NCBI RefSeq assembly: GCF_900143515.1
Contig: NZ_FSQT01000002.1
Span: 3,039,501 to 3,103,500 of the forward strand
From: Micromonospora cremea
Lineage (GTDB): Bacteria; Actinomycetota; Actinomycetes; Mycobacteriales; Micromonosporaceae
DNA length: 64,000 bases
Reading direction: 5' to 3'
Below the pieces are notes generated by a model. It worked only from the letters and a program-made list of their open reading frames with translations. It was not told the DNA's origin and ran no database searches. This document shows positions 51,848 to 53,360 of the stretch, piece after piece (positions within the stretch are counted from its first letter, which is position 1; each line of letters starts with the position of its first letter). The translations under genes were made by a program, and so were the position numbers.

Positions 51848-51916
51848 CGATCTTGCACTTACTGCCGCCACATTCCCGGCATCTCGGGCAGTTCGGCGGC
51901 AGTAAGTGCAAGATCG
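51848..51916. repeat. Palindromic element, family B, copy 1
   Basis: The 69-nt element begins CGATCTTGCACTTACTGCCG; its 22-nt arms (51848-51869 and 51895-51916) are perfect inverted repeats with a 25-nt loop. Also a likely terminator of the transporter operon. Confidence 0.85.
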
Positions 51917-52038: not shown

Positions 52039-53159
52039 ATGGTTACTCAGTTGTGGCGTACCGACGCGCTGATGCGAGCACTCACCGTGCGGCGAATCCG
52101 CACCCGGCTCGGCCGCGAGGAGCTGATCAGGGTGCGCAGGGGTGTCTATGCCGACCGGCCCTGCGGTGACGATGACGAGCTGCGCGCGTTGATGCTGCGC
52201 CTGCCCGAAGGGGCCATGCTGGCCAGGCAGAGTGCCGCGCGACGACACGGCTTTGGCGTGCTGCGGGACGACCTGGTCCATGTCCAACTGCCTGCCGACG
52301 TCCCGAAGCCCCGCCTGCCCGGTCTGGTGGTACACCACACGGTCCTGCCCGTTCGGCCGGTCCACGTCGGGGGTCTGCCCTGCACCGCGGCGGCCCGCTG
52401 CGCCCTGCACCGCGGCGGCCCGCTGCGCCCTGCACCGCGGCGGCCCGCTGCGCCCTGCACCGCGGCGGCCCGCTGCGCCCTGCACCGCGGCGGCCCGCTG
52501 CGCCCTGCACCGCGGCGGCCCGCTGCGCCCTGCACCGCGGCGGCCCGCTGCGCCCTGCACCGCGGCGGCCCGCTGCGCCCTGCACCGCGGCGGCCCGCTG
52601 CGCCCTGCACCGCGGCGGCCCGCTGCGCCCTGCACCGCGGCGGCCCGCTGCGCCCTGCACCGCGGCGGCCCGCTGCGCCGTGGACCTCGCCCGCGCTGTC
52701 CGACGGATGGACGCACTGCCGGTACTCGACGCGGCGCTTCGGTCGGGTGTGGTCACCCAGGACGAGCTGCTCGCGGAGGTTTCGGCGCATCGGGCGCTGC
52801 GCGGCGTCCGGCAGGCTCGGGAACTCGTACCGCTGGCGGACGGTCAGGCGGAGTGCCGGCAGGAGAGCCAACTCCGACTGATCCTGATCGACGCACGCCT
52901 ACCTCCGCCGGAGCCGCAGCTCTGGGTGTACGACCGTCACGGCATCGCTCTCTACCGGCTCGATCTGGGCTACCGCGAGCGCCGAATCGGCATCGAGTAC
53001 GACGGACTGTCGCATCTGGATCGTGATCGGCTCCGATACGACCGGGAACGGGTCAACTGGCTCGACGCGAATGGCTGGCGGATGCGCTACTTCACCGACC
53101 GTGACCTCTACCGCCGCCCCCAATACATCACCGCCACCATCCGCGCCGCCCTCTCCTAA
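52039..53159 (+). pseudogene. AbiEi-like/DUF559 nuclease gene, out of frame through a 12-copy 25-bp repeat
   Basis: The N-terminal part (ATG 52039) encodes LMRALTVRRIRTRLGREELI and the run ARQSAARRHGFGVLRDDLVHVQLP, like proteins with an AbiEi-type winged-helix antitoxin domain. The C-terminal part, readable from 52680, encodes VDLARAVRRMDALPVLDAAL and then RIGIEYDGLSHLDRDRLRYD followed by LDANGWRMRYF, a DUF559/Vsr-like PD-(D/E)xK nuclease domain. The two parts are in different frames, separated by 300 nt of perfect tandem repeat. With one repeat unit instead of 12 the frame is continuous (281 residues). As it stands, translation leaves the correct frame and stops at 52881 after 280 residues. 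Could be a switched-off phase-variable gene, a decayed gene or an assembly artefact. Confidence 0.8.
52380..52679. repeat. 25-bp tandem repeat, 12 identical copies (VNTR)
   Basis: The unit starts CTGCACCGCGGCGG and ends CCCGCTGCGCC; copies begin at 52380, 52405 and so on to 52655, and all 12 agree. There is no stop codon in any plus-strand frame; in one frame it encodes a 25-residue motif four times. The unit equals the gene's own sequence for CTAAARC followed by A, so it arose by duplication in place. Confidence 0.95.
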
Positions 53160-53217: not shown

Positions 53218-53286
53218 CGATCTTGCACTTTCTGCCTCGACCATTGCCGCAATAGCGACATTCGAACGGCAGGAAGTGCAAGATCG
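53218..53286. repeat. Palindromic element, family B, copy 2
   Basis: Again 69 nt, starting CGATCTTGCACTTTCTGCC; 19-nt arms (53218-53236, 53268-53286) pair with one mismatch. The centre does not resemble that of copy 1. Together the two copies bracket the repeat-containing nuclease gene. Confidence 0.85.
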
Positions 53287-53288
53287 CC

Positions 53289-53348
53289 GGGGCGGGGCGG
53301 GGCGGGGCGGGGCGGGGCGGGGCGGGGCGGGGCGGGGCGGGGCGGGGC
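53289..53348. repeat. GGGGC x12 pentamer repeat
   Basis: Twelve perfect GGGGC copies directly after element B2 and before the end of the convergent DUF779 gene. The plus strand could form G-quadruplexes. Slippage-prone and hard to sequence. Confidence 0.9.
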
Positions 53349-53360
53349 GGCGGGGGTGGG

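Follow-up and report, generated by a model that had tools for sequence, protein, structure and literature searches.

The window analysed here, a stretch of 64,000 nucleotides from the Micromonospora cremea contig NZ_FSQT01000002.1, contains a resident chromosomal gene for an AbiEi-like/DUF559 protein that was probably inactivated recently in this isolate, by a slippage-type expansion of an internal 25-bp segment from one unit to 12. The unit, CTGCACCGCGGCGGCCCGCTGCGCC, is repeated head to tail in perfect copies and separates the 5' half of the gene from a 3' half lying in a different reading frame (Table 1). The array was delimited by TRF at 52377–52686 (period 25, 12.4 copies, 99% matches, score 606). 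A count over the whole genome gave 12 exact units, always inside the array, and 0 for a reversed-pattern control, thus excluding a chance origin of the array.

Table 1. Features of the interrupted gene and of its immediate surroundings (positions in the window).
Feature	Position	Strand	Basis
Array of 12 identical 25-bp units	52380..52679	+	Sequence, TRF, genome count
5' half of the gene, ending at the base that precedes the array: N-terminal part, AbiEi-like (wHTH-type)	52039..52379	+	tblastn, PADLOC, Foldseek
3' half of the gene, in a different frame: remaining AbiEi-like region and DUF559 / Vsr-like nuclease domain	52680..53159	+	Pfam
Frame open from the ATG of the gene: N part, array and out-of-frame tail	52039..52881	+	ORF, translation
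Palindromic repeat of the genus, upstream and outside the mechanism, GATCTTGCACTTACTGCC ... GGCAGTAAGTGCAAGATC	51849..51915	.	Sequence; context
Second copy of the palindrome, downstream of the gene	53219..53285	.	Sequence; context
Perfect microsatellite, (CGGGG)12.6, separating the gene from the convergent DUF779 gene	53288..53350	.	TRF; context

Counted modulo 3, the N-terminal half read from 52039 is in frame 1 and the C-terminal half read from 52680 in frame 0. The N frame runs through the array without a stop, leaves the nuclease frame and closes at 52881, about 280 aa from the ATG at 52039, whereas no ATG, GTG or TTG is found in the C frame upstream of the GTG at 52680, leaving the nuclease half without an obvious start codon. 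With a frame shift behind the N part and no start codon for the nuclease half, this allele would not be expected to yield a working nuclease. The preliminary description had counted the 12 identical units, placed the two halves in different frames, reckoned that the gene is in frame only with 1, 4, 7, 10 or 13 units and stated that the unit is free of stops in every plus-strand frame; the sequence and TRF, the frame count, the arithmetic and the translation of the array agree with it on each point.

The copy number of the unit in related genes was obtained by searching 160 genomes of the genus with the 3' half (E 1e-30 or better), which gave 81 places in 72 genomes; two of them, the window included, belong to the genome under study, and the other 79 are distributed over 71 genomes. 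A single unit was found at 79/79 of these places, all of them in other species, as no conspecific strain was found, and this is the main limit of the comparison. At the nine loci of relatives in which both halves could be placed up to the junction, the gap between N and C halves is 27 nt, as compared with 302 nt in the window, a difference of 11 extra units exactly. Identity between the unit and the 25-mer in front of it does not exceed 60% at any of 95 loci (the genus places except L141, 78 in number, and 17 named loci carrying a relative of the gene, namely 14 from Micromonospora, 1 from Verrucosispora and 2 from Micromonosporaceae, with genomes partly shared between the two sets). A tandem duplication at the junction (period 10–60, at least 88% match, from 200 bases before to 100 after) was detected at 0/79 places, while the array of the window, used as positive control, was recovered. 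A single ancestral unit, expanded here, is therefore supported by these sequence comparisons. The ancestor with one unit that had been proposed is borne out by the 79 places, the 27-nt gap and the junction tests, and the search for orthologues with tabulation of their unit number, which had been suggested as a check, returned one unit at every one of the 79 places and no in-frame multi-unit form.

In the relatives, the single unit encodes the conserved motif (P)C-x-P-A-A-R-C-A. Over the nine codons preceding the VDLAR helix (n = 79), P114 is present in 79, C115 in 73, P117 in 72, R120 in 72 and C121 in 75; L141, which carries a frameshift of its own, was read out of frame in this count and has PCAPAARCA in its own frame. 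Upstream of the junction, 74 of the 79 places have 122 open codons, four have a stop (L107, L111, L119 and L141) and one meets a contig edge. Other members of the family are also broken: L119 has an in-frame TGA and, besides the stop upstream of the junction, one 24 codons into the 3' half, L141 is frameshifted, and the protein P0045 departs from the family sequence beyond VDLARG and is only 175 aa long. The comparison as a whole fits a private, recent inactivation in the window.

Homologous proteins gave a concordant picture. The N half retrieved 80 proteins at E 1e-10 or better (about 118–374 aa), and 558 were retrieved with the C half (E 1e-30 or better), 120 of which were listed; for the translation of the array, the 7987 candidates with most words in common were scored (about 180–572 aa), and no match reached E 1e-5. 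In 122 homologous proteins the motif pattern was found once in 108 and twice in 0, and was unmatched in 14. A repeated six-residue word was present in only one of the 122 (LLRVRR in P0057, which is not the motif), as against 25 such words in the array translation of the window. The extra length of P0019, P0020, P0039, P0048, P0107 and P0111 is therefore not due to a repeat.

The nearest relative among the matches listed, P0010, is a 281-aa protein with one unit, whose C half is 96% identical to that of the window. Compared with the translation of 52039–53156, P0010 differs at 16 of 113 residues in the N half (86% identical) and at 6 of 159 in the C half, with no difference at residues 117–151. 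This contrast between the halves makes a recombination joint near the array possible. Against the 14 other relatives, synonymous differences of the window are 0.518 in the N half and 0.445 in the C half, levels like those of the relatives among themselves (0.510 and 0.456). Recombination at the array is kept here as a lead.

As to the nature of the gene product, the C half alone matched Pfam DUF559 (PF04480) with 25.8 bits, above the cut-off of 20.6, and MTES_1575 with 29.3 bits, below its cut-off of 38.2. No Pfam match was obtained with the 5' half, which is recognized by the AbiEi models of PADLOC (best E 1.2e-9; 1.5e-10 for an intact relative) and has, by tblastn, 65–84% identity with the relatives at eight loci and 39% at a ninth (L036). 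Four relatives scanned with Pfam showed no AbiEi family; a precomputed database column assigns PF09407 to many. A structure was predicted with AlphaFold for the intact relative P0003, from a 51-sequence alignment (mean pLDDT 91.3). Searched with Foldseek, the model matched AbiEi (6y8q, E 9.1e-6) and Rv2827c (1zel, E 4.5e-6), with modest TM-scores of 0.42–0.60, and its C-terminal domain matched the nuclease domain of I-Bth0305I (3r3p, E 0.06, probability 1.00). On profile and model evidence, we read the product, 281 aa long when intact, as a fusion in which an AbiEi-like protein carries a Vsr-like nuclease domain. The AbiEi/DUF559-like assignment made earlier thus holds, through DUF559 for the C half and through PADLOC and the fold of the intact relative for the N part.

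The best fold matches (1zel and 6y8q) and the PADLOC models bring the gene close to the AbiEi antitoxin and Rv2827c of the type IV AbiE systems, from which it differs by its fusion to the putative Vsr-like nuclease domain and by having no AbiEii partner beside it. In the AbiE system the AbiEii toxin is encoded adjacently, in a bicistronic operon (PMC3985639). In the present genome no AbiEii gene (DUF1814, PF08843) adjoins the gene, whose neighbours are those for saccharopine dehydrogenase, arginase, DUF779 and aldehyde dehydrogenase; three AbiEii matches lie elsewhere, the nearest about 0.18 Mb away. For this reason the gene was not assigned to an AbiE toxin-antitoxin pair. The C-terminal domain resembles the I-Bth0305I / Vsr-like fold (DUF559, MTES_1575), with DUF559 above its cut-off and 3r3p matched by fold; the nuclease role of the present family is predicted, no activity being reported in the literature read. 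Within the searches made, no paper pairing DUF559 with Micromonospora and no reported role for the nuclease-fold family were found.

Both halves of the gene have evolved under a constraint comparable to that of intact relatives. The pN/pS ratio of the window against 14 relatives (of 21 extracted, seven being left out by an N-terminal sequence filter) is 0.226 for the N half and 0.197 for the C half, as compared with 0.277 and 0.213 among the relatives; with pS at about 0.45–0.52 the test is coarse, it excludes only a long decay, and the last small part of the branch is not visible to it. In the 51-protein alignment, the window keeps 70 of 71 invariant residues (R178Q being the loss) and 80 of 82 near-invariant ones (V116T and P117A). 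The low ratios and the kept residues indicate that selection on the gene lasted until a fairly recent time; a young array is indicated by the perfect copies. The frame break is probably recent, as judged from sequence, and the recent expansion proposed in the preliminary description stands as probable, on perfect copies and on pN/pS without sign of a long decay.

In the model of the intact relative, residues 113–115 form a strand and residues 118–128 a helix, and the unit, which begins with the third base of codon 114 and extends to codon 122, would correspond to the turn and the first part of the helix. C115 and C121 are invariant in the 51-protein alignment. According to the model, if several units were in frame, the helix would continue to be supplied by the final copy, and the extra residues would lie in the turn. 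The substitutions V116T and P117A both fall inside the unit (52384–52389, repeated in each copy) and occur at 0/79 of the other places; where the unit has ACCGCG, the relatives mostly have GTNCC(G). It is as if a small compensated change had preceded the amplification.

The proposed origin would start from the ancestral single 25-bp segment encoding PCxPAARCA, which has a 3-bp direct repeat, GCC, on both borders. A border repeat such as GCC suffices for slippage duplication, and replication slippage at GCC would be the probable cause of the duplication of the segment. Once two copies were present, further slippage or unequal recombination would become easy, up to the 12 units with which translation of the N part would continue through the array and then lose the frame, leaving the nuclease half without a start. 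Revertants in copy number should arise, given the instability of perfect tandem arrays. Repeats in the coding sequence of a beta-lactamase gene are reported to revert at 3.6e-5 and 9.3e-7 (PMC4169377). Reversal is mechanically possible for arrays of this kind and plausible here; nothing shows the use of this one as a switch, or selection for one. Two further contributors were considered. For a DNA hairpin as a driver, the folding energy was only mildly lower than in shuffled sequences with two units (z of −1.47 and −1.44) and not clearly lower with three (−0.53 and +0.27), so that no special structure is proposed; and a general mutator through loss of mismatch repair was not supported, NucS being present.

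The gene is syntenic in 8/8 relatives examined (of 71 with a match), between shared upstream and downstream genes, which we take to be a permease-like ORF and a response regulator, respectively. Flanking palindromes, together with relatives matching only around the gene, had raised the possibility of a mobile gene, which was rejected on this synteny. The palindrome (GATCTTGCACTTNCTGCC ... GGCAGNAAGTGCAAGATC) has an exact 18-bp arm found 11 times in the genome, four of them here, with a reversed control of 0, and in 18 of 41 genomes of the genus, own included. By its sequence it looks like a REP-like family, and nothing related was found in the literature search made on it. The (CGGGG)12.6 microsatellite lies about 130 bp downstream of the gene, and short C/G-rich repeats also lie close to the gene in relatives (L153 9790–9826, L157 9762–9931, L159 9087–9147 and L160 9950–9981).

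The background of tandem repeats was taken from a 1.44-Mb sample of the genome (69 stretches of 20 kb, two of them overlapping by 15 kb, and the window), for which TRF gave 410 rows. Arrays with a period of at least 10, at least three copies and at least 90% match account for 11 rows, eight of them with a period divisible by 3; the remaining three comprise the 25-bp array and two others, with lengths of 34 and 52 bp. Such arrays number five, with four divisible by 3, in a 0.4-Mb sample of another genome (G002), and again five, with four divisible by 3, in 0.16 Mb around the gene in eight relatives, coding or noncoding alike in all three samples. An 8-bp array of CCGCACCA (15.9 copies, 95% matches), with a period likewise not divisible by 3, is located in the own genome at L150 13008–13135 (C2, about 113.0 kb).

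Several facts sit uneasily with a simple inactivation. Genes are usually broken by one small indel, while the passage from one to 12 perfect copies indicates a very active array, which agrees with ongoing variation; the intact and constrained state of both halves is what a contingency locus would show; pN/pS is too coarse to date the break closely; and the changes at V116 and P117 inside the unit imply that mutation at this site did not follow a simple course. A rival reading takes the array as a phase-variable contingency locus, in which the copy number often changes, one state in three is ON and a clone mixes ON and OFF cells. In its favour, the length of the unit is not divisible by 3 and none of its frames on this strand has a stop, its copies are perfect, purifying constraint is visible on both halves, and the modelled site is a turn between strand 113–115 and helix 118–128 where a loop insert might conceivably be tolerated. 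By analogy, the Pgl G tract, the promoter repeats of M. tuberculosis and the beta-lactamase coding repeats may serve as precedents for the mechanism. Of the features by which a phase-variable gene is recognized, a repeat array inside the reading frame, with a unit not divisible by 3, is found here, whereas related genomes show no difference in copy number, more than one unit being present in no homologue among the 79 other genus places; the array translation is likewise absent from the proteins searched (7987 candidates, E 1e-5). Multi-unit ON forms would, moreover, put at least 25 low-complexity residues into a motif with the invariant C115 and C121. The gene is also a single case among the places examined, while the GeneTack scheme wants at least five affected homologues with repeats in a phase-variation cluster and regards singletons as likely indels or sequencing errors (PMC3711429). 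We consequently regard the contingency locus as doubtful. The on/off frame switch of the preliminary description is unsupported by the comparison, with one unit at 79/79 places and a repeated motif in 0/122 proteins; intact relatives all with one unit had been named there as an outcome counting against it, and the comparison, made with other species, does go against a conserved switch. Unlikely, too, is the bolder proposal that the 25-bp coding minisatellite works as a reversible three-state frame counter for the AbiEi-DUF559 nuclease, with ON and OFF segments in a clonal mycelium and with every in-frame gain of three units lengthening by 25 residues the turn that precedes the conserved helix.

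That the true copy number differs from the assembled one, or that the array arose on passage of the sequenced clone, is favoured by the species being represented by a single genome, with no own-species comparison. We consider it very unlikely, as the assembly consists of two contigs for 7.76 Mb, which suggests long reads, and the authors of one M. tuberculosis assembly argue that errors should collapse tandem copies and not expand them (PMC12817950). Hardly credible is that the N part with its repeat tail is kept as a shorter, wHTH-only regulator, the nuclease having been shed by selection: the N frame is open through the array and the N part is AbiEi-like, but the constraint on the C half equals that in intact relatives, the array interrupts a motif that is part of the AbiEi-like fold, and AbiEi truncations from S. 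agalactiae are described as unstable and not autoregulatory (PMC3985639). A recent inactivating expansion of a resident gene remains our preferred reading.

The array shares with SSR/VNTR contingency loci a tandem arrangement within a reading frame, whose unit is not divisible by 3 and whose copy number sets the frame. It differs from them in the length of the unit, 25 bp as against the 1–5 nt usual for phase-variation repeats (PMC4692102), in the one unit found throughout the relatives, and in its reversibility, which is here a candidate property. Phase variation by a 25-bp coding repeat in a nuclease- or toxin-antitoxin-like gene had been presented as something not known from actinomycetes; phase variation through repeat length has in fact been reported there (PMC4365076, PMC12817950). 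In Streptomyces coelicolor, the phage-defence system Pgl phase varies at 1e-2 to 1e-3 in one direction and 1e-3 to 1e-4 in the other, which is attributed to a G tract in pglX (PMC4365076). Pgl resembles the present case in being a DNA-acting actinomycete gene varying by repeat length, and differs from it by its homopolymer tract, its measured switching and its protein family. In M. tuberculosis, the copy number of promoter tandem repeats is reported to be phase-variable, with variants at 1e-2 to 1e-3 per chromosome (PMC12817950); this too is an actinomycete with gain and loss of repeats within a culture, though its repeats lie in promoters and tune expression, and not in a reading frame. A 25-bp coding repeat unit and out-of-frame VNTRs were not found within the literature searches made. 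The principle would thus not be new; the novelty would lie in the variant, with a coding unit of 25 bp and a gene of the AbiEi-DUF559 type.

If the allele is only broken, it represents one more accessory gene broken by slippage, and a caution against reading frame-shifting arrays as switches. If, instead, cultures do show a varying copy number, a soil actinomycete would have a coding contingency locus of high GC and with a long unit, which would offer an ON/OFF handle on this nuclease-fold family.
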